DNA from: a virus
Strand: one strand, 5' to 3'
DNA: 28,255 bases
IMG/VR virus record: IMGVR_UViG_3300017958_001591
Location: 1 to 28,255 of that record
Positions 1-18,141 of the stretch are shown here, piece after piece. Made by a program: the position numbers and the translations under genes. The notes beneath the pieces were generated by a model that saw nothing but the letters and a program-made list of their open reading frames with translations, searched no databases and was not told the origin of the DNA. The first letter of the stretch is position 1; the number at the start of each line of letters is the position of its first letter.

Positions 1-3000
1 ACCTTGGTCTTGTGTAAATCTTTTTACCACATGGAAATCTAAAATTTCGCTGTATGCACCACTACCTGCACAACCATTTCTAAATGTTAATGGTGCATTA
101 CTACAAGAACTAATTTTTACATATTCAGTGTCGCTACCAGACACTGTTGTTACAGTTGCACCCGGTATATCAACACACTTGAGATTTTCGGCAAAGCCAG
201 CAAATCCACCTCCCGGTAAACTAACTGACTCGCCATTAATAATTAATACATCTCCTGGTGTTGCACCAATTACATCATCTCTAGAAATTTTCACACTAGG
301 TGTTGGTTTATAGATATTACAGAAAATTGGGTTGCCTGCAGGAATATGTATTCCACCTTCTGTTCTTCTTGTTGGTGTAATAGTAATAACAGGATTTTCT
401 GTATAGTTGAAATCTGTTATGTTTGGATATAAAGTATCATCATCTTGTCCGTCACCTGGGTATCCTGGAATATCTGCTAAAGGCGTTGTTTCTGAGAAAT
501 TAATATCTTTTAGTGTGATGTCACCACTAAATGCATCTTCAGCATATACTGGTACGCCATCTGGCAATCCAGTTGTAATTGGTTTTGGAATACCGAACAA
601 AATATCTTGTCCGTTAGCAATACTCGATATCAACGAACCAAATAATGTGTTAGCACCGTCTCGTGATCTGATCGCTCTAGGGAACAGAGGAATAGGTCTT
701 GGGCTAGGCGTTGCTAGAGGTTTAACTTTACCACCACTTACTCGCTGAGAAGTTGTATTAGAGTAGTTTATACCTGTAGTGCTGATTGGTTTGTAAATGC
801 CATAATTCTGTGCTGACACAAACTTAGTAGGTGTAGTTTTTCTCAATGCTTTTGGAATACTTCTAAATCCAGTCATTGGAGTTTGACTCCAACCTGCAAA
901 GTTTTGATAGTAATTATTTGAATCCCAAATATTAGCATACTTGCCGCCTAAATAACTAGAACCAGTGTAGTATCCAGTTGGAGAATAAATTGGGGTATTA
1001 TAACCTGTGCCTGTTCCGTATGATCCTGTTCCATAGTCACTATCATCGCTACCGCCTGAGGTTGTTTTGCCTCCTGGGTTACTGTTTTGTGATTTTAATG
1101 CATCTTTACTTAATCCGTTCATGGAAGGAACATCAACACACATTGCATATATGCTACTACCAGAGGCCGCTTCTACTACAACTACAACAATCTCACCATC
1201 TGTTGGATTTAGTGTGCCTTCAATTACACCGGTGTACTGAATATAGTCTTTACTGGCAGGCTCTCTAACAAAGTTTTTGCTAACACTGTTTTTGAGACTG
1301 GTTAAGTATTGTGAATTAGCATTGTTAGCACTTGCTAGTAAATAATCTTTTTCGCTTGTTGTTGCGTTTCTAACTTTGTTTTCGCTTAGGCTTGTGCTAA
1401 ACTTTTTATTACTGCTCGATAGTGCTGTACTTTTACTTGCAACCTGATGAACACTAAACTTGTCGCCCGCACTGTATCCGTGGAACACTAGAGAAACTTT
1501 TCCTTTACAATCCAATGTATAGAAATATTTGTGCGACCCTGATGATTGACTGTATGCTCCGCCTGATGCTTGAGTAGCAAAGAATCTCAGCCACTTATCA
1601 CATGTTGCTGGAACCGGTGGTGCAACAGAACTGTTAATAATCTGTGCTACTGCACCATCGTAAAATGTGCTCACAGGATCAGTAGCATACTGAGTATTAG
1701 GTTTATCAAAAAATGTATCACCGATAGCATCCGGAATTAGTCCATTGTCATCTAGTTGTTGATCAGTCAGTGACCACATTAATGATTCTGCTTTTGTTAC
1801 TTCGTTTGTATAGAAATCATAATCTTCTTGTTCATCTATTGCAGTCTTAATTAAAATAGGACCATATGTTGATTGTCCAAATGCAAAATTAATAGGTAAT
1901 CCACCTAGGCCATCGAGACCACCACTACCAGCACCCCCGTTAGACTTCTGTCTAGCACTATTGTTACTTGGTCTAAAGATCCTCAGATCGTCCCCGGTAT
2001 ATCTAGTGCCGTCTGGTAGTTCAATATATTCAATATCTAATTTTCTATCAAGAGAGTTATCATTAAATACATCCTGCTTCCCTAGTTCAGCACTATAGAA
2101 TGTTACCTTATAATCATTCCATGAACCAGAAGTACACAGATACACAGTTTTAGAACTGTCTAATTTACCAGCAGTAATCATTAGTTTTAGCATGCCGCCT
2201 TCTTCAACAGATGGTTTATCATATGTTAATGAAAAACTGTACTCTGGTGGTTCTGGTGGTGGTGGCGGATTGTATGGTGGCTCTGGTTTAATAATAGGAT
2301 CACTTTGCTCACACTTAGACTTCAATCCTGCTAAAGCACCACCATTAGTAATTGGTCCACTGCCACTGGGGCCTGGGCCTGAAGGGCCTGAAGGGCCTGG
2401 TCCTGAAGGGCCTGGTCCGCTTGGTCCCGGTCCGCTTGGTCCTGGTCCGCTTGGTCCCGGTCCGCTTGGTCCCGGTCCTGGAGTACATGTTGTACCAGGA
2501 ATTGGTCCTGGGTCTGGACTAAAGTGTGGATAATTATAGTATTTGTCACAATATAACAAACATGTGGTTGGATCATAATCTCCATCTGCATAAGTGTTGT
2601 TACATGGTGTGGTCTGCTGAAATGTTTTATTATGTGACAGTAATTCACCGACAATATATGTGTGGGCATCTTCTACAGTGATTACCACAATGTCATCTAT
2701 AATATCATCTTCTATACTGACAATATTAACACCCTGAACATTATCGCCTACATGCAAATCTTGTATTTCTACCCAATCATCACCAACTTTAAATTTGTGA
2801 GTGTAAGAACCTATAAATTCAAAGCCGTCATCAAATTTAACTTTGAGTCTTTGCTCTTGTTTAATTTCTACATAGGTTACATTATACAATCCATACTCGC
2901 CAGTATCTTCATGTGCTGTATATACAACATCGCCTACTGATAAATCTCCTGCGGGTTTTGTTTTACCGTCTTGTGATATCTTAATTGGCATCTCAGGTGC

Positions 3001-6000
3001 TGGGCAACTTGTAATAATAGGAATATCAATCGGTTTGATGTCGGTGGTTAGTGTGATAGCATCATCCGTCCATGGTCCTGGTCCTGTAGTATTACTATCA
3101 GCCGGGCCAGTCGGGCCAGTCAGTCCGTCTATATAATCTTGTATAGCATCAACATCGATATTAAAGTTCCACCCAAAACCACTACCAAGTTGTGTGGCTC
3201 CTGAACCGCCATAATTGTCTAACCAGTTTTGAAGGCTGGTTAAGTCCGGTCCTACTGCACTACTAGTACCAGTACTGCTATAATTAACTCCAGGAGTAAC
3301 CGGATTTAAATAACTTGGTAATCCTAGCGGATTAAAATTATCTGGTATTTTGATTGGTGTAGGTTGACTATTCGTGTAACTACTTGGATCAAATGTAGTT
3401 GGTATTGATTCGCTATCAAAATCTAAATTAAATCCTGAATAATCGTTAGCGATAGGATTACTTGTAATTTGCCCTGTTACAGCAATATCAGTCATGTCAA
3501 TAGCACCACTGTTTAATACTTGATTTGTAACATATGGTGTACCACCAGCAGTATTGTTTATACCTCCTGGTATATTTGTTGGATTATCTAACCATGGGAA
3601 GTTCATGCTAAAACTTCCTCGATATCCTAACCATGCCCTCATCATTGCTTGTCGTCTATTAAACGACTCCACCATGCCGTCAGCACTCTTAATGTTATCT
3701 AATTTGATTGTGCTAAAGTTAGGATTAATCACATCATGGTCTAGTGTGCTGACTACTGCTTGAGTGCTAACTTTTGTAGGATATGCATTCAATGTGCCAG
3801 TAACATTACTTGACAATGTGTCTGTGCCTTTGTAGGTAAATGAACCGTTAACTTGTTGCAGTGTTAACACAGAATCGTTCTGTCCTACCACAATAGCAGT
3901 TGCACCACTATTAGCCTGTGTTATTAATTCTCCAGTGATGTCACCTAGGGTAGCAATATTAGCATTGGCTGTTAAAGTAAAGTTTGCATAACTTGTTTTA
4001 TTTTGCCATGGATACAAATCCAGCACTTGCATGTAGTTGTCTCTGGTTAGGTGTGCATTTACAACTTTATTGTAATAACTTATTGGGAAATTGTGAATAC
4101 CAATTTTACCAGTATATCCTGTTATACCTAAGTCTTTATCGAATGTAATCTTAAGGTTTTTAGTTACAATATTACCTGTAGTTGCTGTATTTGCATAGTA
4201 AGGCACATTGATAATAAAAGTATTTGCTGTGGCACTTTCAACATTAAACACACCATTGTATGTACCAGCATCAGTAATTTTAACTTTTTGTCCACTTAAG
4301 AAAGGATGGTCTACTGATGTAACCAATGTCTTACTTCTAGTTTCTAATACCAAATTACCTACATCAACAATACCGTTACCTTGATTAGCCCAGTCAGTTG
4401 TTACAAATGCATTATATTGTGCATTACTTAGACTTACTGTAAATCTTCCTATTTCAACATTACCGACTACAAATGTATTTCCGTATAATGGGAATGTATT
4501 ACCTAATGCAGATCCAAAACTTACTGTAGAGCCATCAAACAAGCCGTCTGTTGCGGCTGTAATTCTCACAGTGTTATTTGCTAGTGCCGCGGCACTTGCT
4601 GAGCTAATTTTGCTAACTGTTGAACTAAAGTTTGTGATTTCATATGTTGAATCAATCGAAGGCGCAATAGAAACAATATTTGCTTCTACCATTTTAACAC
4701 TAGACAGATTACTAATTCTAACTTGTTTAGCATTTACAACTTCCTGGTTGGTCCACACTACAAACTTTTCATTTAAATTTGTATCTTTAACAATTAGATG
4801 ATAATCTAAGAATCTACCAGTATCAATGTCATGTATTTGATTGTTGTCTGTGTATTCAAACAGATCTTTATCAGTGTATAAATATGCACTTCTTTGGCCT
4901 GCTTCGTTTTCAATATAAGATGTATTTGCTTCTATATTCTTAAGTTGGTAGACATTCCATGTTTTGTTTTCGCTTTTTGCAACATGAATTGTGTGACCTT
5001 CATCTGGCTGAACTAAGTTTGTGTCTACAAAAAATGATCTAATGTCTTGCGGTCTAAATGCTCTAAAATCAACATTTGCTTTATGCACATATCCTGCATT
5101 AGGAATTTCTCTAAATTTTTCATCAACGGCGCCGCGCCAATCTATATTTGCTGTTGTTGGCCAAAGTCCGTTTTCTTTAACACCCAAAGGTTTTTTGAGG
5201 AATCGTTTGTTGTCATCTATATCGATTAATATAGTATCATCATTTTTAACATCTGGTGTTATTTCATAAATTCGTTTGCTCTTAACTAGAGCAGTAATAT
5301 TATCTGTAGCAGTAACCTTAATTCTAATTGTAGCATTAGGTAAATCGCCTTGATAGTTTTCATTCAATGTGATCGTAGAATGTTCTTTAATGTAGATGTT
5401 AGCACCTGCGGCTAACATTTTATTTTTTAAACTGCCTACATCATATATTTTTAAACTGGTACTACTTAAAAACTCGTATCGTTTCCAGTCAGGAGTATTA
5501 ACCAATCTATCGCCATTAACATAAACATCTACATGAGGATATATGTTTTCTGTTGCAACAATATTATTTGCATCTACATTAAATGTTTTATTGTTAAATG
5601 GACTGATTAAAGTTATGTTCCCTGAATAAACTGTATCAGGAGAAACTAAGCCACCACTACCAGGAATAATTTTTTGTGAGTTAGGAATACCAGAAGTTAC
5701 AAAACTTAATGCTGTTCTACTACCGTGATCATATACCCAGTTGTTTCCATTGTCAGACGGAACAGCAGTTCCGTTAATTGTCATAGCAATATGAGAAGCA
5801 TTAGTTTCCGAACCTGTGCCATCTGTTTTAGCATCGAATGTGTCTATGCTAAATGATTGCTTAGGTTGATACCTTCCTGGTGTTAAGTTTAAATCACTAA
5901 GTGTGGTTCCACTCTCTGTGAGAGTAAAGTCACTACCAACAATAGATATTCTGCCTTGTACATTTACAGGAGCAATTTCATCTACATCGTAATCGCCATC

Positions 6001-9000
6001 TACTACCATATTAAATGTTGCAAATGATGCTTTAATGTTTGCATTTACATCTGCATTATTATTGATTGCATCTGCAATCATATACAAATTACTTGCACTG
6101 CTTACATCAATGTCAACATTTGCATTACCAAAGTGATCAGTAATAGTAATGTTGCTTAAAGTCATGCCACTTAAATTATCTGATACTATTGCTGTACTTT
6201 GTGCCTGAGGTGATTTAAATAAATGCCTTGTGTCGCTTATTAAAATGTTACTTGCAATAATATTAAGGCCGGTGGTTTGTTCGTATCCAGAGCCTTCATT
6301 TGTAACTTCTATGGAAGAAATTTCTCCTGCACTGTTCAATACTGCTTTTGCAGTTGCCGTAATCTTAGGATCTTTAATAGGCTGATTTATTTCTATTGAA
6401 GGTACACTGTGATATCTATGACTAGTGCTAACCACATTAATTTTATCTACTACGCCGGTTGTGTCTTCAGGGAATGCTAAAGTAATTAATTGAGGATCTG
6501 AAACAATATCATCTCTATCAATCTTCAATTCAATTGCTTGATCATTTTCTAAGTCACCAAAATCTCCAACCTTAACAGCCCATTCATCAAATATTGTCAT
6601 ATTTCCTTGAATGATGTTGTTGCTCTTAGAAATTTTCTGTAGAGAAGGTATAGTACCTTTCTCTCTAATCATACCACTATAAAATTCAAATTGTGTATCA
6701 TCGTCCATCTCTAAATCAGATAGATATGATTTTTCAGTATACCCAAATAGTCCTCTAGCCCTTTCGTATAAGTGTTTTTCAACTGGCACAAATCCTAATT
6801 CATGGTAACGGCCTAAACTTTGTGCCATGTTGTCTAAGTTAGGTTTAAGTTCGTCGCCTTGAATAATAAAACCTTCACTGCTAAATCTACCATCCCAGTT
6901 AGCAGTCTTCTTACCTTTTAATCTTAATCTATTTTGTTTTTGATTGTATAAAGGATTGTAAATTGTATCATTAAATTCTGTTAAATTATCTACAGTCAAC
7001 GCATGTTCAATTTCTTTAGTGTACAACAGGCATCCATAGATTTGTGTGCCGGATGGCGGAATAACTTCTATTCTGTTATCAACACGAACTATTTCACACT
7101 CAGTTGGCTGAATTGCTTTACCATTTTGATCTATAAGATTAAATTGGCTTCTTTCAATTCTGTTTACTTTTGCAATAAATCCGGTCTCACTCTCAAATGC
7201 TACTTTAGTAGCCATCGGTGAAAGTTCGATAGTGTTATTATTTTGCCATCCGCCTGCTATCCAAAATAAGAATTGCTTACCTGCGTATGTCCAATTTCTT
7301 GCGTCATTAATACCAACATCAAATCCACCAAAATCAAAACCTAAACTTTCATGGTAGTTTCCTAATGCTATTAAGAATTCGAACACTTCTTGGTGAGTAG
7401 CAAATACCGTATCGTATTCTACTCTTACTACTTCTGGTAAAGATTCTTGATAAATTACTCCTTTGACCGATCCTCTAGTTGGAAGACCAGATAATGATTG
7501 CCAAAGAGAACTTATAAATGACTCACTGCTGGTCACAAATGTAGGTGCTCGATAAAATCTATCTTGATAAGCAACAATAGTACCTTTCTGATATGCTGTT
7601 AATGGTTCCCATGGAACAAACTCAACTGCTTCGCCACCTACTTCAAATGAACTAGTTGGACCAAATTTGTTAGGTTTTAATGTGTTAAAGTATCCTAAAT
7701 TTTTATCGTATCCTTTAACTTTATAACCATTTTCAATTTTTTGTACAATTACACCACTATAAAAGTTTCTATTTTTATATGGTGAACTATGAATAGTAAT
7801 CTCAATATTTTCATTTGGAATAATGAGACTGCTTCTAGTGCTTGTACTACTAAACTGATCGCTTCTAACTTTCAATGTGTCTTTGTCTGTAAAGCCTTCT
7901 ACTCTATGCGACAGTTTAGTATTTACTGTTCTTATTTTATCTACAAAATCAGTCTTAGTATTAAGTCCTTGATATGTTAACCAAGAATGTATAAATTGTG
8001 TATAACCTGTATTAATAATTGTGTCATTGTTCGCATCTAAGTCGCCATGAATTCTAAAATGGTCTGCTGACTTAAATTTAAATATTTCTCTATCAGTTTT
8101 ATTAATAAGTTTGAAACTTTCTGCAGGAGGTGTTTCAGTATTTGTTGGGTCTGCAAATAATGTTACAAATCTTCCGGGCTTAGCCAGTAACAATGCTTCT
8201 GTTATTGCAAATGGATACGATGAACTATACTTCCATGCATTTTCTACAGGTGCGCCATCGCCAAACTTCCAATCATTAGATATTAAATTACCTGAACCTG
8301 TAACTGTGGTTACTATATCATATGTGCTAGTGATTGCGTTTAATTCACCTACTGTAGTAATATTGCCTGCGTTATTTTCTTCAGGTTTAAGTGCAACGGC
8401 ATAGTATTTGCCTGACCAAGTATATGGTTCACTAGAACCCCATATTGCATCTGTAGAGTCTTTTATTCCACCAAATGCATACGGGAACATAGGGTTGCCG
8501 TTATAATCTACTGTAGTAACATAGTAATAAATAGGTGTTGTAGGAGATTCAGGTGTTACACCATATCTCATGTTGTATTTTGCTAGTCCAGGCTTGAATC
8601 CTACAAAGCCATCTGCACTATCATCTGTTGCATCATATTCATAATCTTCTAAGTATTCACCAGTATGGTACCCGCCTGGGCCACTGCTTCTTGTTCCAGA
8701 TTTAAGTCTAAAAACACTTTTAATATTTGTAATACCACTACTGCTGTCCATAGCATCAGCATAACCATAAGGACCGTAAATTGGTAATCCATCCCATGCA
8801 AATCCTACAATAGGTGAATGCTCTGTTGTACTCCATTCCTCTAAGCCTGCATGTTTAGGCTCAATAATGTAAGTTCCTTTAGGTGCTGTTTCGTTTCTAT
8901 AAATCGGGTTTTCATGCCATGTCCCTGATGCATCTGTTTTGTTTTCATCTTTTAAACTGTAAATAGGCACACCAGTAACAGTAACACCAACAAAGTTATC

Positions 9001-12000
9001 ACCTAGCTCGTCTGCAAATCCCTGGGCAACTACGCCTTCAGGGACAATACTGCTATTTCCCATTTGTTCAAATGTATAATTATAAAGTTGGAAACCAGAC
9101 TCTATATTGTCATTTCTAATATAGATATTTGCAATTTGGAAACTGTCAAACCCAACACCCACAGTATCCCAACCAGTAGTATCCCATGTAATCCTTGCAG
9201 ATGTACCAGTACCGTATGTTACATTAATACCGTTAGGAAGATTATTGTGTCCTTGACTGTCATAAAACTGGTCTGTAATATCTAAACTAGCAACTCTTGC
9301 GTTTGACCAATTAAGTGAGTTTGTTGTAGAACCGTTACTAGATATCTCACCAGGACTTAAAAGTGTACCTGTTTTTGTTACTGGTAATAAATTAGACAGA
9401 CCTGGTCTTGCAAAATTATTTTTAATTTTGTAACTTTCATCGGCAAAGTTTTCTCTAGGCCCTTGCCTAATAATACCTAGTTCTAAATCGTTCCACATGC
9501 TCTCATTTAGAGCAGTGTAGTCGGTGCCATATTGCGTATCCCACCAAGTTGGCTTTTCAAAGAAACCCAACATTTCCCATGGATGAGTATGGGGTCTCAC
9601 TGTATCGTAGTAATAATTGTACCAGCCTCTCCAGTGACCTGGAAGATCTATATTGCCTCTGTAATTCCAAGTCCACTTGTCGTTTTGATCAAAAAACTCG
9701 TTTTTCTGATAATCTGTTTTATTTGCACTAGACCAGATAATAAAATTATGTCTTAATAAATCTGCATATTCTTTAGGCTCAAAATCTGTATCTCTAAAGT
9801 AACCAGCTCGTACATCTGTTGTGTTCAATTTTGGTAAACTGTTTGCATCTCTAAATTGTTTTTGACAACTGTTGTAAATTCTTTTTTCAAACTCTAATAA
9901 AATATCATCAGTGATGTTACCAACTGTTGGTGTTTTACTGCCATCGTGTCCTATTACAACATCTATAGGAGTTTGATACGATGAATCTGTTTCTATTCTA
10001 GGTTGATGTAACGGATATATGCCCATTGCACTCGGTGTAGGAGGACATTCAGCACTGTCTCTGTTTTCATCATACAATTTTACAATAATTGTGTCGCCTA
10101 CTGATAATGTGAATTTAGAAGAATCTAATTGAACCGTAATTGGGTTAGTGCTACTAAATGTATATTCATCATCTAATAATAAAATGCGAGGGAATTCATC
10201 GTTAAATGCTTTATAGTAAACTAGTGCAGTATTTTCTAAAAGTGCAACATCTTTATATTCGTCTAGTGTATATTCAAACTCTGCAACATCTGTAACATCA
10301 AATGTTTGTTCTACAAAGTTATCTCCATACGGTAAAATATAACTAGTTGCAAATACACCTTTACCTATACTGTATGATACTGTATTTCTTAAAACTTTTT
10401 CAAGTAAATATTCATTTGAATAAAGACTAGTATCAAATGTATTATAATATTTTTGTATTTCTGATTTTAATCTGTTTTTAAACTTTTCGTATTCTCTGCC
10501 AACAAATCTAATAGACTCAAGCAAGTTATGTGGTTGATCGTCTAATAAAAACGCACCTAAGATCAAATTATCGTTTGACATGGTAATGTCAGTTGCGTGT
10601 ATTAAATCTTTAGGACTAGAATCAAAATTGTTGCTTGCTAATGCATCACCTGCAAATCCGTCTTGACTTTCTACAAATCTCTTAAAGTGAGGCAAGTACT
10701 GAGGTTCTGCAATAATTTCTATATCATTCTTATCAGGGTTGTTTCTCCAACTTAAAGGAATATCATATCTACTATTATTAATTAATCGTAAGCCATCATC
10801 ACTTACAACTTCAATTTCAATGATATCGCCATTTTTAAAATCAAATTTTGAAAATACGATGTTTCCGTCGTTATAAGTGTAATCAGAAATTATAACACTG
10901 TTCTTTTTAACTATTATATCATAACCACTAGGCGTGCCTAATCTAGTGTTTGGTACTGCACCAATATCGTAAATTAAAGTCTTATCTTCGATAATATTAG
11001 CATCAATAGTGTATGTTGTATGAATTTTTTGACGAGATAAAGCATCTACTGTCTTCCAATAAGAATGATACTCTGTTTTGTTGCCAAGTAATTTATAATA
11101 AAACGCACCTTTTATAGAACTGTTTGTACTACTACCGAATGGTTTATAGTTATATGATGCTGTTTCTATACAGTTCTCAAAACTAATTTCACTAGCACTT
11201 TTAAATTGACTGTAACTTAAAGGGAACCCTAATACACTATCATTTGTGCCTGTTCCTACTTTATAAGAAAATATCTTACAACCGTCAAAAGATGAACTAG
11301 GATAAATGCCAAGATTGTTTAATGATCTATTTTTATCGTCGTATAAATTAAACAGAGGTGCTTGGTTGACATTTGTTTTATTTTGTGCCTGCTGGAATCC
11401 TGCATCTGTTACCAAATAATCTATTCCACTATAATTAATACCATTTTTAATATTAAATGTATCACCTGTAGCAAGCACAGCACCTTCTGCTGTTAAAGCA
11501 ATACTTGAACCTACACCGCTTACTTTATAGATAATGTTTTTATTTGTTTCAGATTCGTTATCAAAAACAATTAACATATTGTTAGTTAAATCAACATTAT
11601 CTATAGTAAATGTTGATTGGCCTTGTATGTCTGATATGAGATTTTCTGTAACAAATAAATCTACTTCACCTCGATAATTTGTACCGTGGTTATACATTTC
11701 TATTCGTCTATCGAATTCTATAATAGGTCTTTGAGCTCTGTATTTTTTATCCGGTAATGTATCACCTACATCTAAAAAGTTATTTCTATGATACCAGTGG
11801 TTACATCTACTCCAAGCAGAACCAACTACTGATCCTCTTTCTATAACCATGTAGTCTGAGTATTCTTGATTTGCTTGAGCACCAAACATTCTATTACTAA
11901 TACTTTGCTTGGTTAGATAAATGCTTTCTCCTACACCACCTACAATATAATTTGTTGCAATATAACTAGAAGGTATAACATAATTACCAACAAAAGAAAT

Positions 12001-12555
12001 AACCATTCCGTTGCGTAATTTTTTACCGTTCATGTTTGGAGATGTTGTGCCATCTACAAATGTGTATTCTTTTTTGCCTATAATATCTTTTTCTATATTA
12101 ATAGGATTGTATTGATCCATTGTGATTGTAACAACACTTGGGCCTGTAAGTGACCAAAAATATTCTGCATGATTTATAAACTTGTCAACATTAATTGGTG
12201 GCATAAATGTTTGATAATTAGAACCAAACAATGTATTATGATTTCTTACATTAACACCATAAGTTTTAAGTATATCTATAAATTCATCATAGAAAATTAC
12301 ATTTTCACTTTCACCAGTAATAGGATTTAAATTGTTTACCGCTGGACTAAAAGCATAGTGGAATCTATCTGGATTCAGTGTGTCAATAAATGCTCCGGAT
12401 AAACCTGTGTCGTCACCGGTCTTCTTACCAATGTATCCGGAAAGCACAGTTGTATTTGCTTGGCTATATAATTGCTCTACAGTACTTTCGAAAAAGTTTT
12501 TAATTGCTGTAGTTTGCAATACAACTGGTAAATTGTTTACTAACTTATCGGCCAT
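1..12555 (-). CDS. Giant baseplate-region structural protein (gp7 position), partial, at least 4185 aa
   Basis: This open frame starts at an ATG whose first residues are MADKLVNNLPVV and runs without a stop to the window edge, so the C-terminus is missing. The start lies 7 nt after the gp6 stop, with an AAAGG ribosome site inside the end of gp6. Its place directly after gp25 and gp6 is that of T4 gene 7 (wedge protein, about 1030 aa), so a baseplate wedge or baseplate-periphery role is inferred from position. I cannot claim sequence similarity to gp7. The first 1000 residues contain motifs I associate with large virion proteins of marine T4-like phages: an IGHDGS motif near residue 870 and HPWEMLGF followed by PTWW near residue 991. 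The middle (about residues 1900-3150) is Ser/Thr/Asn-rich and looks like repeated beta-structure. Residues 3184-3309 form an intein-like Hint domain; residues 3361-3398 form a PGPSG repeat followed by a proline run. The last 870 residues are Gly/Ser-rich with scattered Cys. Confidence 0.85.
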   Translation of the reverse strand, partial: MADKLVNNLPVVLQTTAIKNFFESTVEQLYSQANTTVLSGYIGKKTGDDTGLSGAFIDTLNPDRFHYAFSPAVNNLNPITGESENVIFYDEFIDILKTYGVNVRNHNTLFGSNYQTFMPPINVDKFINHAEYFWSLTGPSVVTITMDQYNPINIEKDIIGKKEYTFVDGTTSPNMNGKKLRNGMVISFVGNYVIPSSYIATNYIVGGVGESIYLTKQSISNRMFGAQANQEYSDYMVIERGSVVGSAWSRCNHWYHRNNFLDVGDTLPDKKYRAQRPIIEFDRRIEMYNHGTNYRGEVDLFVTENLISDIQGQSTFTIDNVDLTNNMLIVFDNESETNKNIIYKVSGVGSSIALTAEGAVLATGDTFNIKNGINYSGIDYLVTDAGFQQAQNKTNVNQAPLFNLYDDKNRSLNNLGIYPSSSFDGCKIFSYKVGTGTNDSVLGFPLSYSQFKSASEISFENCIETASYNYKPFGSSTNSSIKGAFYYKLLGNKTEYHSYWKTVDALSRQKIHTTYTIDANIIEDKTLIYDIGAVPNTRLGTPSGYDIIVKKNSVIISDYTYNDGNIVFSKFDFKNGDIIEIEVVSDDGLRLINNSRYDIPLSWRNNPDKNDIEIIAEPQYLPHFKRFVESQDGFAGDALASNNFDSSPKDLIHATDITMSNDNLILGAFLLDDQPHNLLESIRFVGREYEKFKNRLKSEIQKYYNTFDTSLYSNEYLLEKVLRNTVSYSIGKGVFATSYILPYGDNFVEQTFDVTDVAEFEYTLDEYKDVALLENTALVYYKAFNDEFPRILLLDDEYTFSSTNPITVQLDSSKFTLSVGDTIIVKLYDENRDSAECPPTPSAMGIYPLHQPRIETDSSYQTPIDVVIGHDGSKTPTVGNITDDILLEFEKRIYNSCQKQFRDANSLPKLNTTDVRAGYFRDTDFEPKEYADLLRHNFIIWSSANKTDYQKNEFFDQNDKWTWNYRGNIDLPGHWRGWYNYYYDTVRPHTHPWEMLGFFEKPTWWDTQYGTDYTALNESMWNDLELGIIRQGPRENFADESYKIKNNFARPGLSNLLPVTKTGTLLSPGEISSNGSTTNSLNWSNARVASLDITDQFYDSQGHNNLPNGINVTYGTGTSARITWDTTGWDTVGVGFDSFQIANIYIRNDNIESGFQLYNYTFEQMGNSSIVPEGVVAQGFADELGDNFVGVTVTGVPIYSLKDENKTDASGTWHENPIYRNETAPKGTYIIEPKHAGLEEWSTTEHSPIVGFAWDGLPIYGPYGYADAMDSSSGITNIKSVFRLKSGTRSSGPGGYHTGEYLEDYEYDATDDSADGFVGFKPGLAKYNMRYGVTPESPTTPIYYYVTTVDYNGNPMFPYAFGGIKDSTDAIWGSSEPYTWSGKYYAVALKPEENNAGNITTVGELNAITSTYDIVTTVTGSGNLISNDWKFGDGAPVENAWKYSSSYPFAITEALLLAKPGRFVTLFADPTNTETPPAESFKLINKTDREIFKFKSADHFRIHGDLDANNDTIINTGYTQFIHSWLTYQGLNTKTDFVDKIRTVNTKLSHRVEGFTDKDTLKVRSDQFSSTSTRSSLIIPNENIEITIHSSPYKNRNFYSGVIVQKIENGYKVKGYDKNLGYFNTLKPNKFGPTSSFEVGGEAVEFVPWEPLTAYQKGTIVAYQDRFYRAPTFVTSSESFISSLWQSLSGLPTRGSVKGVIYQESLPEVVRVEYDTVFATHQEVFEFLIALGNYHESLGFDFGGFDVGINDARNWTYAGKQFLFWIAGGWQNNNTIELSPMATKVAFESETGFIAKVNRIERSQFNLIDQNGKAIQPTECEIVRVDNRIEVIPPSGTQIYGCLLYTKEIEHALTVDNLTEFNDTIYNPLYNQKQNRLRLKGKKTANWDGRFSSEGFIIQGDELKPNLDNMAQSLGRYHELGFVPVEKHLYERARGLFGYTEKSYLSDLEMDDDTQFEFYSGMIREKGTIPSLQKISKSNNIIQGNMTIFDEWAVKVGDFGDLENDQAIELKIDRDDIVSDPQLITLAFPEDTTGVVDKINVVSTSHRYHSVPSIEINQPIKDPKITATAKAVLNSAGEISSIEVTNEGSGYEQTTGLNIIASNILISDTRHLFKSPQAQSTAIVSDNLSGMTLSNITITDHFGNANVDIDVSSASNLYMIADAINNNADVNANIKASFATFNMVVDGDYDVDEIAPVNVQGRISIVGSDFTLTESGTTLSDLNLTPGRYQPKQSFSIDTFDAKTDGTGSETNASHIAMTINGTAVPSDNGNNWVYDHGSRTALSFVTSGIPNSQKIIPGSGGLVSPDTVYSGNITLISPFNNKTFNVDANNIVATENIYPHVDVYVNGDRLVNTPDWKRYEFLSSTSLKIYDVGSLKNKMLAAGANIYIKEHSTITLNENYQGDLPNATIRIKVTATDNITALVKSKRIYEITPDVKNDDTILIDIDDNKRFLKKPLGVKENGLWPTTANIDWRGAVDEKFREIPNAGYVHKANVDFRAFRPQDIRSFFVDTNLVQPDEGHTIHVAKSENKTWNVYQLKNIEANTSYIENEAGQRSAYLYTDKDLFEYTDNNQIHDIDTGRFLDYHLIVKDTNLNEKFVVWTNQEVVNAKQVRISNLSSVKMVEANIVSIAPSIDSTYEITNFSSTVSKISSASAAALANNTVRITAATDGLFDGSTVSFGSALGNTFPLYGNTFVVGNVEIGRFTVSLSNAQYNAFVTTDWANQGNGIVDVGNLVLETRSKTLVTSVDHPFLSGQKVKITDAGTYNGVFNVESATANTFIINVPYYANTATTGNIVTKNLKITFDKDLGITGYTGKIGIHNFPISYYNKVVNAHLTRDNYMQVLDLYPWQNKTSYANFTLTANANIATLGDITGELITQANSGATAIVVGQNDSVLTLQQVNGSFTYKGTDTLSSNVTGTLNAYPTKVSTQAVVSTLDHDVINPNFSTIKLDNIKSADGMVESFNRRQAMMRAWLGYRGSFSMNFPWLDNPTNIPGGINNTAGGTPYVTNQVLNSGAIDMTDIAVTGQITSNPIANDYSGFNLDFDSESIPTTFDPSSYTNSQPTPIKIPDNFNPLGLPSYLNPVTPGVNYSSTGTSSAVGPDLTSLQNWLDNYGGSGATQLGSGFGWNFNIDVDAIQDYIDGLTGPTGPADSNTTGPGPWTDDAITLTTDIKPIDIPIITSCPAPEMPIKISQDGKTKPAGDLSVGDVVYTAHEDTGEYGLYNVTYVEIKQEQRLKVKFDDGFEFIGSYTHKFKVGDDWVEIQDLHVGDNVQGVNIVSIEDDIIDDIVVITVEDAHTYIVGELLSHNKTFQQTTPCNNTYADGDYDPTTCLLYCDKYYNYPHFSPDPGPIPGTTCTPGPGPSGPGPSGPGPSGPGPSGPGPSGPGPSGPSGPGPSGSGPITNGGALAGLKSKCEQSDPIIKPEPPYNPPPPPEPPEYSFSLTYDKPSVEEGGMLKLMITAGKLDSSKTVYLCTSGSWNDYKVTFYSAELGKQDVFNDNSLDRKLDIEYIELPDGTRYTGDDLRIFRPSNNSARQKSNGGAGSGGLDGLGGLPINFAFGQSTYGPILIKTAIDEQEDYDFYTNEVTKAESLMWSLTDQQLDDNGLIPDAIGDTFFDKPNTQYATDPVSTFYDGAVAQIINSSVAPPVPATCDKWLRFFATQASGGAYSQSSGSHKYFYTLDCKGKVSLVFHGYSAGDKFSVHQVASKSTALSSSNKKFSTSLSENKVRNATTSEKDYLLASANNANSQYLTSLKNSVSKNFVREPASKDYIQYTGVIEGTLNPTDGEIVVVVVEAASGSSIYAMCVDVPSMNGLSKDALKSQNSNPGGKTTSGGSDDSDYGTGSYGTGTGYNTPIYSPTGYYTGSSYLGGKYANIWDSNNYYQNFAGWSQTPMTGFRSIPKALRKTTPTKFVSAQNYGIYKPISTTGINYSNTTSQRVSGGKVKPLATPSPRPIPLFPRAIRSRDGANTLFGSLISSIANGQDILFGIPKPITTGLPDGVPVYAEDAFSGDITLKDINFSETTPLADIPGYPGDGQDDDTLYPNITDFNYTENPVITITPTRRTEGGIHIPAGNPIFCNIYKPTPSVKISRDDVIGATPGDVLIINGESVSLPGGGFAGFAENLKCVDIPGATVTTVSGSDTEYVKISSCSNAPLTFRNGCAGSGAYSEILDFHVVKRFTQDQG
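2362..2475 (-). repeat. 15-nt tandem repeat encoding PGPSG pentapeptides
   Basis: In the giant frame, residues 3361-3398 read as seven PGPSG units, with one partial PSG between the sixth and seventh. Units are 15 nt with silent changes at third positions. Glycines alternate at spacings of 3 and 2, so this is not a collagen Gly-X-Y helix; it resembles GPGXX turn-forming elastomeric repeats. It is followed by a proline-rich run (PPYNPPPPPEPPE, residues 3426-3438) and probably acts as a flexible or extended linker just downstream of the Hint domain. Confidence 0.9.
2629..3006 (-). other. Intein-like Hint domain inside the giant protein
   Basis: Residues 3184-3309 of the giant frame show the intein/Hint blocks in order. 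Block A begins at Cys3184 (CPAPEMPIKI), followed by DG at 3196-3197 and a GDL...VGDVV segment at 3203-3211. Block B is SYTHKFKV with His3253 and Ser three residues before it. The C-terminal blocks are VEDAHTYIVGELLSHN, with His3298, the penultimate His3308 and terminal Asn3309. At 126 residues it has no room for a homing endonuclease. The residue after Asn is Lys, not Cys, Ser or Thr, so the nucleophile for standard protein splicing is absent. From the family, Cys1 thioester chemistry and Asn cyclisation could still cleave the chain. It resembles bacterial-intein-like domains seen in other phage tail proteins. Confidence 0.85.
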
Positions 12556-12562
12556 TTAAATT

Positions 12563-15500
12563 TTACCTTTTTACACTTAAAGTTTGTTGACTAATTTTTT
12601 CTACAACTTCTATATCATTCACAGTAGCGGTATTTAAAAACAATTCATCTGGTTCACCTTTTACTTGGAAAAGATCACCAAACTTACCACTAGTGTTTCT
12701 AGGTACAATAACTATACTACCTATATTACTGCCCAATCTTTGATGCACATAACTGCTGAGTTCTGTAAAGTAAAAAGTTTCACCAAACTCCCAATTATCT
12801 ACATTAAAGTATGTGTCAAATGCTTTAATAATTCTACTTCGAATTTCGTTGTCGCTAAGTGTAGAACTTTTTAGTTTGACAACTCTAAATTTTGCTTGTA
12901 CGCTTTCGTCTGCATCATCACCAAATAATTTCTTAAATTTGGCACTCTTAAATACCAATGTATCACTTGCTGATTTGAATTCTTGTAAACCTTTAAATTC
13001 GTTTGCTAATTCTGAACTGGTTGGCGGATATGGCCATTCAGTGCCAGGTACTTTTTTGTACTTCAATACATCACTGTAATATGTACTAGTTAACACTAAC
13101 ATTTCAACCACATTACTAATGCTAGGATCAATTCTCACATCTTTAGGTGCAACATGCTTCCATTTAAAAATCACTTCGTCGTTGCTTTGTGATGCAGTAT
13201 TTTGACCTGCTGACCTACCATTTCTCACATAAAATTCGTCTTCGTCTTTTTCTATTGCAGATACAATCTGAGGATTAGTGCTCTGCTTAGTTAATTGAAA
13301 AATCTTTTTGGTATCCACTGCATACAACAACAATCCGTTTAATGCGCCTACATTATTTTCAAATTCACTTACTAAGGTTTGCTTTTTAAGTATTACCAAA
13401 TTTATGTTGTCTAGGCTCTTAGTATTAGCATAACTACCAGGACTAATTTCTCTTGTGCCTATATTAACACTAATACTTGTTTCGTTTCTTAAGTCCTCAA
13501 TAACACCAGTAAAAGGTCTACTATATTTGTAACCATCAAAATCTGTATAGTGGTCAAAGAACACTAAATCATGTTTATTAACAAACTCTCTAAATTGTAA
13601 TGGTCTATCAGGAACTAGATCGCCATCAACATCGTATGCTGATACAATAACTTTACGATTGTCTGTAAATCCGTCATTGTATTTGACCGGCTCTACCACA
13701 GTCCATTTAATATCATTATCAAGTTTATCCTTGTCGTATGAATAATTAACAACCATTTGATCTCTGCTTAATCCGCCTGCATCTCTTACATAAGTATGTG
13801 CGTTTTCATTCCAATTCTTAATCCTAATATTTCCTGTTTGAAGAGTTGGATTGGAATCAAGTAACAGTACTCTACCTGTTGCATTTGCGTTAGCAGTATC
13901 GTTATTAGGACCATAACTGTATGTGCCTGTTGTGGCATTAGCATGATAAATTTCTAATTGCTCAGTATCGCTGTTATAATCTCTATAAATTATTTCACCG
14001 TTAGCGGCCAAAATGTTATATCCAAATGTTGTGTTATTGAATTCAAATGTAACCTGTCCTGGCCAAAAGTTAATAATACCGCTGTTGTTTGAAAGTGTAA
14101 TATTACTATAACTAGCATTGGCACCGCTATCATCGGTTTTAAAATATGTAGGCAAATTTACTATTGCTGGATTAACAAATACATTAGATGGTCGATCACC
14201 ATTTCTAAATATGCCTAAATTTGTTTTCCAATCTACAGTAACATCATACCACTTGGTATTTCTTGCTCTCAAAGGAATATTTGTTAGATATCCGTTTGGC
14301 TGATACAAGTCACCGCTTAAATCACTTCTAAATACATCACCTTTAAACGAATCGCCTAAACCATCTGAATTAGAATCTATCCAAGTAAATGTTTCTGAAC
14401 TACCAGGTTTAAAGTTTAGTTTTGTAAATGTAATTAAATCCTGATTTGCGGCATTATCAGAATCAAGTATTTTTGAGTTTTGTATATTATAAAACTTAAG
14501 ATCTTTTTTACTTTCAACTATGTAATGCTGACCTCTACTAGTAACATTGTATGTTGTTTTTCCGTTGACTGTTCCTGCAAACTCACATAGCACTAACCAA
14601 CTTGCATCAAGTCCATTGCCGGATGTGTTTCTAGAATAAAAAGGTGACCATTCACCGGTCTTGTCTATATTCGTATTTTGTATAACATACCAAAAGTCTT
14701 TTTCTGAATCGTACCCTAATGCAAAGGTTCTTTTGTTTTCTAACTCAGTGCCAATCAATGATCTTTCATTTCTATCAGTGGCAAATTCTTTTCTAATACT
14801 AGGAATATAGTCTGTAACTTTCCAGTTATGTTGAATCTTATCACTTATCTGTATAGGTGCAACTCCTGTGCTTAATCCACTGCTGAGTTCACCATTATTA
14901 TCGACTCGTGTAAGTCTAGCCCAAGTCCAATCGGATGGATCTCTAGGATTCTCAAATCTTAAGAAATTATTTTCTTGGAACATTTTAAACATAAACTTGC
15001 CAGTTGTATTATTAAAATAATTGTTCACCAAAACATTTTCCTGTCCTGCTACAGAAGATTTTTCTGTAAAATAACCTGTCTGGCTTTTGCCTGTTACAAC
15101 TGGTAATGATTTAAATAATATATCATGCCTTTCAATGTTGAATTTGTTTGTATCCAAATCCATCCAGCCTTCTCTGTATTGGTTATAAACAAAATTACTC
15201 AATCTCTGATTTTTAAGTATTTTAGGTAATGTTACTGTTAATACTTCAGAAACTGTATTATTAATACCTACTGTAAATTGGCTTGTAACTGTTTTACTTT
15301 CACTATACAATGCACCATCTTGTGCAAATGTTTCTAAATTCTGATATGTTCCTGTCGGATCATTAATATCAATATATCTACTATGGCCGGCATGAGTTCT
15401 ATTAATTGCTTTTAGTTTTGTAATATTACTGCTTTGACTAAACGGAAACACATTATAATCCTGTGCAGAAACCATTCTGTTTTGTGTATAGAATGCTTGC

Positions 15501-16765
15501 GGTGCTCTCTGTTTAATAGCACCCAATGTTTCTGCTGGCAAACTGTTTTTCACAGTGTACTTTAAACTACATGTAATAGTTAATGTGTGCTTTTCGCCAG
15601 TTGCATTTTCATAAGGAATAGGTATCTGTATGTTTCTTGCCATTGCAGGAGTAATTGTAAATGCTTCAGGTAAACTAACCCTGTGATACATTTTAAATCT
15701 ACCGTAAGGAATATTACCAAATGTACCGTCTGGGAATTTTAATCTTATACCTGCATTATCAATATTTTCTATAGAATATAAATTCTTCTCACCTAGTGTG
15801 AGATCGTTATATGTTAATGTTTGTCCAACAGTGTTAGGTACTCGTTGCCATTTATTTAAAGTTACACCATTTGAATCTAATTCTGATAACCAAACATCAC
15901 TTTCGTTAATGTTTGGTATATTAACATTTTCAATTCTATTTTCAATAGGTGTAATGTAGTTAAAATCGTTAGTACCTAATGTACCCTGCTTAAACATCAA
16001 GAAGAATCCGGTATCATCACTGCCTATACCTTTACCATCGTTTCTGTAAATTAAATTAAAGTTATTAAGTTGATTAGGGTGTTGTTCTTCAAACACGCCG
16101 CCGTCTTTAAAATCTGGATTAACAACCTCAAAGTTTAATTGTCTATTGTTGACACTAATTTTAAAAGGAAAACTAATAGGAGCATTTAATTGAGTTTGTA
16201 TTTCATAAATGTCTGTTGGCACATCTGCTACTTTACCTGACTTTACAGGCGCACTATATCTATTACTACTGCTCATCGCAGAATTTAATACTAATAAAAA
16301 TTGCTCGTAACTGTCAGGATTATTTGCATCATCAAAGAAAATGTTTACATTGTTAAGATTATTACCAGCACTGTCTGTAACAGTTTCTGATGTTCTAATA
16401 GAATCAACTTTTAATAGCCCGCTTGCACAAATATTTCTTCTTGGATTGTAGCCAAGCATTCTTGCAAGTTTAAAAACAGAGTCGCGTCTTTCAGCAGTTT
16501 CTAAAAAGTTTTCTCTGCTGTTGAGATCCATTCTGAATGCCAGTGACTGAGATATAAACGCCAGCATTTCAATGATAGCAATAAACTCAGAACTTTCTGT
16601 GTAGTCGTTAAAGTTTTCAGGAAAGTTTGTTTTGATATAATCGACTAGAGCATTTTTAATGGTGTCAAAATCATACGCCTGGAAATCAACCTGGCTAAAT
16701 GCTTTATATGCAACTTTCCAATCTTCTGCCGCAAATAAATTATTCTGTCTATTAACTAAAGCCAT
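12563..16765 (-). CDS. 6: Baseplate wedge protein gp6-like, 1400 aa
   Basis: This is the gp6-type wedge subunit, which in T4 forms the ring connecting the baseplate wedges. The N-terminal 100 residues (NRQNNLFAAEDWKVAYKAF, then a long helical segment ending in LARMLGYNPRR) match the conserved gp6 N-terminus as I know it. The order gp25-gp6 supports the assignment. The protein is about twice the T4 length (about 660 aa). The extra mass appears to lie in the middle and C-terminal half, which is rich in Asn, Asp, Thr and aromatic residues and contains short acidic stretches such as SNSDGLGDSF. The ATG follows the gp25 stop by 2 nt, and an AGAGAG ribosome site sits in the last gp25 codons, so translation is probably coupled. 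I assign it with good confidence from the N-terminus and synteny; the function of the enlarged part is unknown. Confidence 0.85.
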   Translation of the reverse strand: MALVNRQNNLFAAEDWKVAYKAFSQVDFQAYDFDTIKNALVDYIKTNFPENFNDYTESSEFIAIIEMLAFISQSLAFRMDLNSRENFLETAERRDSVFKLARMLGYNPRRNICASGLLKVDSIRTSETVTDSAGNNLNNVNIFFDDANNPDSYEQFLLVLNSAMSSSNRYSAPVKSGKVADVPTDIYEIQTQLNAPISFPFKISVNNRQLNFEVVNPDFKDGGVFEEQHPNQLNNFNLIYRNDGKGIGSDDTGFFLMFKQGTLGTNDFNYITPIENRIENVNIPNINESDVWLSELDSNGVTLNKWQRVPNTVGQTLTYNDLTLGEKNLYSIENIDNAGIRLKFPDGTFGNIPYGRFKMYHRVSLPEAFTITPAMARNIQIPIPYENATGEKHTLTITCSLKYTVKNSLPAETLGAIKQRAPQAFYTQNRMVSAQDYNVFPFSQSSNITKLKAINRTHAGHSRYIDINDPTGTYQNLETFAQDGALYSESKTVTSQFTVGINNTVSEVLTVTLPKILKNQRLSNFVYNQYREGWMDLDTNKFNIERHDILFKSLPVVTGKSQTGYFTEKSSVAGQENVLVNNYFNNTTGKFMFKMFQENNFLRFENPRDPSDWTWARLTRVDNNGELSSGLSTGVAPIQISDKIQHNWKVTDYIPSIRKEFATDRNERSLIGTELENKRTFALGYDSEKDFWYVIQNTNIDKTGEWSPFYSRNTSGNGLDASWLVLCEFAGTVNGKTTYNVTSRGQHYIVESKKDLKFYNIQNSKILDSDNAANQDLITFTKLNFKPGSSETFTWIDSNSDGLGDSFKGDVFRSDLSGDLYQPNGYLTNIPLRARNTKWYDVTVDWKTNLGIFRNGDRPSNVFVNPAIVNLPTYFKTDDSGANASYSNITLSNNSGIINFWPGQVTFEFNNTTFGYNILAANGEIIYRDYNSDTEQLEIYHANATTGTYSYGPNNDTANANATGRVLLLDSNPTLQTGNIRIKNWNENAHTYVRDAGGLSRDQMVVNYSYDKDKLDNDIKWTVVEPVKYNDGFTDNRKVIVSAYDVDGDLVPDRPLQFREFVNKHDLVFFDHYTDFDGYKYSRPFTGVIEDLRNETSISVNIGTREISPGSYANTKSLDNINLVILKKQTLVSEFENNVGALNGLLLYAVDTKKIFQLTKQSTNPQIVSAIEKDEDEFYVRNGRSAGQNTASQSNDEVIFKWKHVAPKDVRIDPSISNVVEMLVLTSTYYSDVLKYKKVPGTEWPYPPTSSELANEFKGLQEFKSASDTLVFKSAKFKKLFGDDADESVQAKFRVVKLKSSTLSDNEIRSRIIKAFDTYFNVDNWEFGETFYFTELSSYVHQRLGSNIGSIVIVPRNTSGKFGDLFQVKGEPDELFLNTATVNDIEVVEKISQQTLSVKR

Positions 16766-16767
16766 TT

Positions 16768-17130
16768 TTAATTCTCTCTTGTAAACTCAAGATACAGTGC
16801 ATCTTCTGCGTTTAAGTAAACAAAGTTTAATGCTACTTCTACTCTAATAGAATGGTCAGTTCGTAGCATCTTAATATCTCGCAATTCAACTCTTGTTTCT
16901 TTTTCTATAATTCTTTCTATATCTTCTCTAATTTCATTATCTGTAACTAGATCCTCAGGATTCATTAGCAAGTCATGAACAATACAACCAAAATCCGGTC
17001 TCATTACTCGCTCGCCTTTCTTGGTGTAAAATTCATTCAGTAGATCTCTTTTCACCAATTCTATATCTGTAAGAGTATATGGTGCCCTAATATTGTCTAC
17101 TGTATTGAATCCTTTGAATACTGTTGCCAT
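16768..17130 (-). CDS. 25: Baseplate wedge protein gp25 (lysozyme-like GPW/gp25 family)
   Basis: This is a 120-residue protein starting MATVFKGFNTVD. It has the gp25 family core: a conserved YTLTDIELVKRDLLNEFYT helix, RVMRPDFGC, then EIREDIERIIEKETRVEL and a C-terminal beta strand pair. In T4, gp25 sits in the inner baseplate and nucleates sheath polymerisation through a gp25-like fold shared with sheath proteins. The frame is open further upstream (ATGs at 17151 and 17145). I prefer the start at 17130 because a late-promoter-like box (17136-17143) lies just 5 nt upstream and would exclude the earlier ATGs. No Shine-Dalgarno sequence is visible before any of the three. It is the first gene of the gp25-gp6-giant-protein block. 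Confidence 0.9.
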   Translation of the reverse strand: MATVFKGFNTVDNIRAPYTLTDIELVKRDLLNEFYTKKGERVMRPDFGCIVHDLLMNPEDLVTDNEIREDIERIIEKETRVELRDIKMLRTDHSIRVEVALNFVYLNAEDALYLEFTREN

Positions 17131-17135
17131 ACAAG

Positions 17136-17143
17136 TATTTATC
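17136..17143 (-). promoter_or_regulatory. Putative late promoter box GATAAATA upstream of gp25
   Basis: On the minus strand the octamer GATAAATA differs at one base from the T4 late box TATAAATA. The same octamer precedes the gp48-like gene at 24741-24748. In T4 transcription begins about six bases after this box, which here falls at or next to the gp25 ATG at 17130. Confidence 0.55.
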
Positions 17144-17264
17144 ATAATCATTAACTATAGTTTTAATTAAAGAAAAAGTGGTTGACAGGGCGTAAAAAGT
17201 GTGTATAATAAGCAATGTTGTAGTAAATACAACTGTTATTTTTACTAACAAGAGGAACAATTAA
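17144..17264. other. Divergent intergenic region between gp25 and accessory cassette
   Basis: The gap between gp25 and the 83-aa gene (17131-17264) is one of only two real intergenic gaps in the window. It holds the late box for gp25 (minus strand), a sigma70 promoter and leader for the cassette (plus strand), and the plus-strand ribosome site at 17251-17256. I see no hairpin terminator in it. Confidence 0.7.
17182..17209 (+). promoter_or_regulatory. Host sigma70-type promoter for the accessory cassette
   Basis: TTGACA at 17182-17187 and TATAAT at 17204-17209 are separated by 16 nt, a perfect match to both hexamers. The segment before the -10 reads GTGTG. The promoter at 24796-24823 is built the same way. 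It drives the plus-strand gene at 17265 with a leader of about 50 nt. Confidence 0.85.
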
Positions 17265-17516
17265 ATGTTCAAGATCAAAAATGAGTTTGATCGTATTTGT
17301 GTGTTAGCCGATGTTGCTAACAAAAAACTTAACTTTAAGAGGTTCCATACAATGTCTGCTACCAAGCAGAAGTATGCACAGTTTGGAATCTATGATAGTG
17401 TTAACAAAAAGTTTGTTCTTTTTGACACTATTTACTTTGCAGGTCACTATGGCTACGATAAACATGTTAAGCCACAGGAATTTGTAGAGATGGAGAAACT
17501 TATCAAGAATGTCTAA
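17265..17516 (+). CDS. Hypothetical protein, 83 aa, first gene of accessory cassette
   Basis: I do not recognise this family. It is a small basic protein (MFKIKNEFDRICVLADV) rich in Lys, Phe and Tyr, with no signal peptide or membrane segment. A good ribosome site (AGAGGA, 17251-17256) lies 8 nt before the ATG, and a strong sigma70-type promoter is just upstream, so early expression is likely. Its 3' end overlaps the hydrolase gene by 8 nt, which implies translational coupling. The promoter, ribosome site and tight overlap argue that it is a real gene rather than a chance frame. Confidence 0.7.
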   Translation: MFKIKNEFDRICVLADVANKKLNFKRFHTMSATKQKYAQFGIYDSVNKKFVLFDTIYFAGHYGYDKHVKPQEFVEMEKLIKNV

Positions 17517-18141
17517 AATCTTATATCTACATGGTGCTAATGCTTCGCCTGATAATTTTAATTATTATAAATTAATTTTGCCAAAACATGACAGCATAGC
17601 ACCTATGTATGATATGGATGAAGATCCTTTTGATGTTGTGGACTCTGTGACTAGAAAGGTCCGCCGTGAACTAGGTGATGAACCTATCACGGTGGTCGGC
17701 CACAGTTTTGGCGGATTAATTGGTGCTTGGTATAGTGCCATTAATCCCAGCCAAGTTAAACACCTAGTTACTATTGCTACACCGTGGCAAGGCACACCTG
17801 TTGCTAGAATTTTTGGTTATTTTTTTAGAAACTCGAAAATGTTCCAAAACACTAGGCCAGGTGCTGATGTTTTAAATTTACTGCAATCTAAAAAGTTTAA
17901 CGGTATGCATACTAACATTGTTTGTACTCGAGGTGGCAATCCTGTTGCCGGTATGGGCAGTCAAGCCAATGACGGCATGGTAAGTGTTAGTAGCCAAAGT
18001 GCTACACCGCCTCTATTCAAAAACAGCGAAAATTTCTTTATTGAGGCTGGACATAGCGGAATTTTGTTAAATAATACTGCAACAGAGTTATTAACTAAAT
18101 GTATATTCGAGGAAAATTGTGAGCCAAAATCTCAATCTTAA
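17509..18141 (+). CDS. Alpha/beta hydrolase (lipase/esterase-like), 210 aa
   Basis: This is an alpha/beta-hydrolase-fold enzyme. The N-terminus has the first strand and oxyanion loop (ILYLHGANASPDNF). The nucleophile elbow is VVGHSFGG with Ser66. Asp155 in SQANDGMVSV and His182 in EAGHSGILLN complete a plausible catalytic triad in the right order. The ATPWQGTPVAR segment after the elbow is typical of lipases and PGAP1-like esterases. There is no signal peptide, so it should act in the cytoplasm. The substrate is unknown; ester hydrolysis of lipid or acylated compounds is possible. It overlaps the preceding 83-aa gene by 8 nt and the following gene by 23 nt, so all three are one operon. The cassette is transcribed against the surrounding baseplate genes. 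Confidence 0.85.
   Translation: MSKILYLHGANASPDNFNYYKLILPKHDSIAPMYDMDEDPFDVVDSVTRKVRRELGDEPITVVGHSFGGLIGAWYSAINPSQVKHLVTIATPWQGTPVARIFGYFFRNSKMFQNTRPGADVLNLLQSKKFNGMHTNIVCTRGGNPVAGMGSQANDGMVSVSSQSATPPLFKNSENFFIEAGHSGILLNNTATELLTKCIFEENCEPKSQS

Follow-up and report, generated by a model that had tools for sequence, protein, structure and literature searches.

A Hint (hedgehog/intein) domain is encoded in a 28,255-base fragment of an uncultured virus (IMG/VR record IMGVR_UViG_3300017958_001591, positions 1 to 28,255; hereafter, the window), which carries a single copy of it, at 2629–3006 on the minus strand, within the gene of a giant virion structural protein of a jumbo-type phage. Judged by its sequence and its predicted fold, the domain is a member of the Hint superfamily, since the fold, the first cysteine (Cys1), the block-B histidine and the C-terminal His-Asn are all present. 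On sequence comparison, it belongs to a widespread family of Hints found in phage tail proteins, and the members of this family keep a nearly invariant lysine immediately after the His-Asn. This lysine signature is the new part of the finding. No earlier description of it was found, and in the open-access literature, to which the survey was confined, neither a lysine rule nor a Hint family of tail proteins was found described. The domain is probably a non-intein Hint with intact catalytic residues that would process itself in the manner of a type-A bacterial intein-like (BIL) domain, from within a disordered insert of a baseplate-region virion protein.

The Hint Domain and Its Catalytic Residues

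The translation of 2629–3006 (minus strand) is CPAPEMPIKISQDG...VEDAHTYIVGELLSHN, 126 residues that correspond to residues 3184–3309 of the giant protein, exactly as the initial annotation of this DNA had proposed when it reported an intein-like Hint domain followed by Lys3310 at position +1. The catalytic elements are all encoded on the same strand. Cys1 (Cys3184; 3004–3006) is the predicted nucleophile of the N-S acyl shift, the block B motif SYTH (residues 3250–3253; 2797–2808) provides the catalytic His3253, the block F motif is DAHTY (residues 3296–3300; 2656–2670), and the block G pair His3308-Asn3309 (2629–2634) is the predicted site of Asn cyclisation. Beyond this point the giant protein reads HN-Lys-Thr, with Lys3310 encoded by AAA (2626–2628, minus strand), and a Gly-Pro-rich repeat of GPGPSG units, detected with a tandem repeat finder and predicted as coil with low confidence, is located just C-terminal of the Hint (2369–2478, minus strand).

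As a single sequence, the domain remains below the Pfam thresholds of both PT-HINT (E = 6e-5, 23.7 bits against a cut-off of 27.7) and Intein_splicing (E = 0.0096); some of its relatives, unlike the window domain, narrowly exceed the PF07591 cut-off. A profile built from an alignment of 13 relatives does find solved Hint structures, namely the BIL 6y75 (E = 2.6e-11), the mini-intein 7cfv (6e-9), the BIL 2lwy (1.7e-8) and the intein 6qaz (7.6e-8). The AlphaFold2 model of the domain has a Hint fold (pLDDT 97.5), and a Foldseek comparison of this model with inteins and BILs gives E-values of about 1e-8 to 1e-7 and TM scores of 0.80–0.86. Two mini-inteins (Ssp DnaB and Npu DnaB) and a BIL from Tetrahymena head the matches, and the match to the Clostridium thermocellum BIL is significant as well. 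When the flanks are included, a prediction from four sequences reaches a pLDDT of 41, which is low confidence; the Hint is still outlined in it and the flanks appear as coil. A chance occurrence of the motifs is rejected by the predicted fold, the profile matches to solved structures and the existence of homologues. No endonuclease was seen in the window Hint, and no toxin domain downstream of it.

A Family of Hints in Phage Tail Proteins

The family was sampled by scanning IMG/VR with the query, with an alignment and with two DNA patterns, which yielded at least 200 loci, some of them sharing a contig. This is a sample and not a census; the E-values of the locus search are relative to the candidates, and the functions of the host proteins are assigned by homology only. 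After clustering at 80% identity, 97 complete members were retained, with a median pairwise identity of 0.35. Despite this divergence, every member (97/97) has Cys1, the block-B His and a terminal His-Asn, and each position of AHTY is kept in 93–95 of the 97; the complete Hint fold and the intact catalytic residues proposed in the initial annotation are supported. The family signature can be written as TxHExT and AHTYI...SHN. A search bias behind the conserved residues is rejected: neither DNA pattern includes the Lys codon, one of them also leaves the C-terminus untouched (the new members found with it have Cys1 in 31/31 and His-Asn in 31/31), and the statistics hold in subsets. The Hint domain is under purifying selection, with a median dN/dS of 0.12 over 25 independent pairs and a value of 0.14 between the window Hint and locus L004.

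All hosts that can be identified are tail or virion proteins: the giant protein of jumbo phages (phrog_10938), tail fibres (phrog_5616), proteins of the tail-tubular-B type, and a tail-tip protein whose gene follows that of the tape measure in a prophage of Sphingopyxis flava. Further hosts are large DUF4815/phrog_358 proteins without an assigned function, and many lack any family match. Two loci with the domain are found in bacterial genomes, of Sphingopyxis and Sphingomonas, and both are prophage-like. Some uncultured phage proteins are labelled 'Hint' in database entries. In cultured phages, no close relative of the window Hint was found, the best tblastn matches being distant inteins or Lak-phage Hints.

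A Lysine Rule at the C-Terminal Junction

The initial annotation regarded Lys3310 as a defect with which standard splicing should fail. It was correct that no canonical splicing nucleophile is present at +1, and Cys, Ser or Thr occupies this position in just 1 of the 97 members; the lysine itself, however, is a hallmark of the family. It is found at +1 or +2 in 95/97 members, against 5% expected from the frequency of Lys at positions +3 to +12 (2.5%), and the two exceptions carry Lys at +3 and +4. In 39/97 the lysine is at +2 and another residue takes +1. Internal domains mostly end in HN-K, C-terminal caps in HN-K or HN-(Ile/Leu/Val/...)-K, and the tree implies 11 or more shifts of the lysine from one of the two positions to the other.

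Several trivial origins of this lysine were considered. An artefact at the nucleotide level is rejected, because the codons AAA and AAG are both in use and follow the GC content. A role as mere positive charge is weakened by the fact that Arg alone never occupies the Lys position (0 vs 95), despite the free exchange of K and R beside the block-B His of the same proteins (54 and 33, respectively; Fisher p = 5e-13, a value that ignores sequence relatedness and serves as a guide only). An N-degron exposed after Asn cyclisation is likewise weakened by the 39 members that have a different +1 residue and Lys at +2. The excess of Lys, the use of both codons and the lack of replacement by Arg therefore indicate that lysine is selected as lysine. 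In bacterial pretoxin HINT domains, used as a control (21 loci, L252–L281, some near-duplicates), the junction reads HN-x-Cys; 19 of the loci have Cys at +2 and the other two at +3 or +4. Given that Cys is kept there and Lys here, each Hint family retains one reactive residue just after its His-Asn. The data favour a lysine-specific role, which might be that of an acceptor, giving an isopeptide product, or that of a residue that positions the junction.

The Insert That Carries the Hint

The giant protein is encoded at 1–12,555 (minus strand) by an open reading frame (ORF) that runs off the window edge and specifies at least 4185 aa. It matches phrog_10938 (E = 6.6e-254), a family assigned as virion structural by PHROG, and tblastn and blastp to jumbo phages identify it as an orthologue of PA5oct gp355, a virion structural protein of 3857 aa annotated as detected by mass spectrometry. 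The orthologues in jumbo phages (PA5oct gp355, Atu_ph07 gp180 and SCTP-2 gp140) have 3800–4450 residues each. PA5oct gp355 shares the conserved N and C parts and the gene order with the window protein but lacks the Hint, and has about 72 aa where the window lineage has about 2000. The Hint is also absent from the other two of these orthologues.

The domain lies in a lineage-specific insert that extends from about residue 2537 past the window edge (1–4947, minus strand), with boundaries set by blastp and the far one taken from a near relative, locus L027. In this relative, blastp places the conserved N and C parts some 2000 residues apart, with the Hint between them, and the C part beyond the Hint comprises about 2470 residues; the figure of at least 876 residues given initially for the C-terminal fragment holds as a lower bound, the longer one being the better estimate. 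In four homologues of the giant protein, similarity spans the stretch between the TS-Cys1 junction and Lys+1 and is lost immediately on either side; the conserved unit is therefore the Hint plus its junctions. The giant-protein family has kept the Hint even though identity in the host part has fallen to about 38–51%. The Hint thus sits in a disordered, hypervariable insert although the host protein itself is conserved. Among other large phages, no Hint was found in CBB, and one was detected in the large terminase of RaK2 and K64-1 (PMC5259590).

Relation to Known Hint Systems

The defining feature of type-A BILs is a C-terminal His-Asn without a +1 nucleophile (PMC4031507). They mostly undergo cleavage, with some splicing by attack of a free amine on the thioester (PMC4031507; PMC7765530; PMC7664689), and are located in hypervariable regions of non-conserved proteins (PMC7765530). 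The window domain has the same C-terminal arrangement and also a hypervariable location, though in a protein that is itself conserved, and it would be expected to work like a type-A BIL. The similarity to the C. thermocellum type-A BIL (PDB 2LWY) includes the Hint fold (Foldseek E 5e-7, TM 0.83), Cys1, the C-terminal His-Asn, the lack of Cys, Ser or Thr at +1 and the hypervariable, linker-like location. The phage family differs from type-A BILs in its occurrence in tail and virion proteins, in the near-invariant Lys at +1/+2, in its TxHExT and AHTYI...SHN signature, and in its frequent position as a C-terminal cap or beside a point of gene fission. The best profile match, the Tetrahymena BUBL BIL2 (PDB 6Y75/6TMM; E 2.6e-11), is also a Hint without canonical splicing, but it belongs to a ciliate BUBL locus and its PDB chain is named ADP-ribosyltransferase.

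In the open-access papers surveyed, the Hints reported from phages are inteins, and the genes that harbour them encode a terminase, polymerase, ribonucleotide reductase, helicase or dCTP deaminase. Phage inteins such as gp41-1, TerL, PolB and RNR have the Hint fold and blocks A, B, F and G in common with the window domain; in contrast to it, they occupy conserved sites of DNA-metabolism or packaging genes and carry Cys, Ser or Thr at +1 (e.g., Ser in the phiCbK TerL intein; PMC3556154), whereas the window Hint is found in a linker of a structural protein and is followed by Lys. A canonical class 1 intein is excluded by the +1 residue, the absence of an endonuclease and the location, which is a lineage-specific insert with unalignable flanks and not a conserved critical insertion site. 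Class 3 inteins, which lack Cys1 and have a block F Cys (WCT motif), do not fit either, as Cys1 is found in 97/97 members and the block F stretch of the window domain, VITVEDAHTYI, contains no Cys. The nearest Pfam family is Pretoxin HINT (PF07591), which also has a conserved residue after the C-terminal HN; this residue is Cys at +2, in contrast to the HN-Lys-Thr of the window domain, which scores below the cut-off of the family.

Placement in Host Proteins

Among the 99 members scored for position, 46 are C-terminal caps (with a tail of at most 25 residues) and 53 are internal. The caps are often preceded by Gly-rich stretches, and the internal Hints are flanked by Pro/Gly-rich sequence. In at least seven loci (L177, L161, L229, L187, L199, L114 and L245), the gene of the tail-tubular-B type is divided between two ORFs that adjoin or overlap, with an offset of −4 to +9 nt, while HTVC010P gp13 and BPP-1 bbp13 are single ORFs. 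The two halves align side by side on HTVC010P gp13, around residues 173–187. The N-half ends in a linker, a complete Hint and a short HN-K or HN-Ile/Leu-K tail, and the catalytic residues are intact in these Hints.

Other arrangements were also observed. Tandem Hint arrays occur at L119, L076, L074, L089, L141 and L129; in one type of array, the inner His-Asn has been lost from one of two neighbouring copies and the inner Cys1 from the other, and the outer end reads HN-Arg-Arg. At L099, L142, L154, L158 and similar loci, the Hint is at the N-terminus of an ORF of about 460–510 aa, with 4–10 residues before Cys1, and is followed by a Pro-rich segment. L007 and L015 have a degenerate second Hint-like domain right after the first (after residue 630 and 150, respectively), and both are without Lys at +1/+2.

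Proposed Chemistry and Rival Explanations

A BIL-like reaction is taken as the working model, because a capable Cys1 and Asn without a +1 nucleophile correspond to the definition of a type-A BIL. From this model we infer each of the following chemical steps, and the biological role as well. After folding, the Ser3183-Cys3184 bond would most likely shift to a thioester and Asn3309 would most likely cyclise, freeing the Hint. The N part of 3183 residues would then separate from the C part of about 2470 residues, within the flexible insert, and a fraction might be rejoined by attack of an amine of the C part on the thioester. The lysine after His-Asn would most likely take part, whether by accepting the acyl group or by holding the C-terminal junction in position. 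Two observations weigh against this proposal. Known type-A BILs are described only as lacking a +1 nucleophile, with no lysine rule, and the tail gene is already split in at least seven relatives, so that breakage of the chain alone cannot be the general purpose. The cutting of the chain in two, as proposed initially, is for this family an incomplete account of purpose, as it spans unrelated tail proteins in which the domain is often a cap or lies at a point of gene fission. In the split genes cutting would be redundant, yet the catalytic residues are intact, which favours self-removal, ligation or crosslinking over cutting alone.

This persistence of the catalytic residues also counts against a pure cleaver, in which thioester hydrolysis and Asn cyclisation would cut both junctions with no ligation, and Lys would position the junction or aid cyclisation. 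Type-A BILs give mainly cleavage products (PMC4031507; PMC7664689) and the flexible Gly/Pro linkers on either side of the Hint fit cleavage, but a specificity for Lys without substitution by Arg would be unusual for a purely electrostatic role, and we regard this explanation as possible though rather doubtful. In a lysine-acceptor alternative, the Cys1 thioester would be attacked by the side-chain amine of the conserved Lys, and Asn cyclisation would then free the Hint. The result would be an isopeptide (branched) ligation in tail proteins, including those with split genes, that joins the N part to the C part, to the short tail or to a neighbouring subunit. The position of Lys (95/97 at +1/+2 against the 5% expected, with the exceptions at +3/+4), the lack of Arg-only members (0/95), the use of both codons, the 11 or more switches between +1 and +2, and the conserved nucleophile Cys held by bacterial PT-HINT at the equivalent place in 19/21 loci all agree with an acceptor. 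On the other hand, the product in C-terminal caps would bear a tail of just 2–25 residues, one tandem array has HN-RR, and Lys could instead serve a specific contact. In addition, unless it is activated, the amine of a lysine makes a poor nucleophile at neutral pH, and we know of no Hint with a lysine acceptor; ligation to this lysine is, on balance, unlikely.

Two further explanations were considered. The domain turns up in numerous unrelated tail proteins, whether arrayed in tandem, placed at a C-terminus or set in a linker, and this might suggest an inert decoration, that is, a Hint-fold module without chemistry placed on loops or ends of tail proteins like the Ig-like domains of phages. 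Residues needed for chemistry alone should drift in such a module, but Cys1, His and His-Asn are invariant, and Lys nearly so, at about 35% identity, which makes the explanation quite improbable. The fold and blocks A, B, F and G would also suit a canonical self-splicing (selfish) mini-intein; however, +1 is Lys, with Cys, Ser or Thr there in 1/97, there is no endonuclease, and the domain is sited in a non-conserved linker rather than in an active site and has been retained while the host diverged to about 38–51% identity. A mini-intein of this type is hardly credible. Type-A-BIL-like autoprocessing, most likely with participation of the lysine, is the explanation that we consider probable.

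Gene Order Around the Giant Protein

The giant-protein gene is preceded on the minus strand by a baseplate hub, gp5-like gene (18,316–20,925; phrog_13211, E = 2e-41), a gp25-like baseplate wedge gene (16,768–17,151; Pfam GPW_gp25, E = 3.5e-12) and a gp6-like baseplate wedge gene (12,563–16,765; phrog_10646 baseplate wedge subunit, E = 0). The order hub, gp25-like, gp6-like and giant protein is that of the T4 baseplate, and the baseplate-region setting described in the initial annotation is supported. Its gp7 position is correct by synteny; homology of the giant protein to T4 gp7 was not seen, the PDB sequence search having given no match.

Some other features of this region were recorded. A YHYH domain (Pfam PF14240, E = 7e-19) is encoded at 8500–8997 (minus strand; giant-protein residues 1187–1352), in a stretch without counterpart in the PA5oct alignment. 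A weak match to carbohydrate-binding module 5/12 (E = 0.008, below the cut-off) is found at 7501–7611 (minus strand; residues 1649–1685), and in Pseudomonas phage PAC2 the orthologue carries a chitin-binding annotation. An alpha/beta-hydrolase-like ORF with a GHSFGG motif lies on the opposite strand (17,509–18,141, plus strand), midway through the baseplate cluster.

Implications

The domain described here represents a large Hint family that occurs in tail and virion proteins wherever the host is identifiable, is non-splicing by its sequence and follows a lysine rule at the C-terminal junction. If these Hints are active, phage tails would process themselves via thioester chemistry, which could explain the maturation of tail proteins that are oversized or branched. 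Should the lysine prove to be the acyl acceptor, the family would provide an intein-related, genetically encoded route to isopeptide ligation, useful for protein engineering. The copies in Sphingopyxis and Sphingomonas prophages make the family testable.

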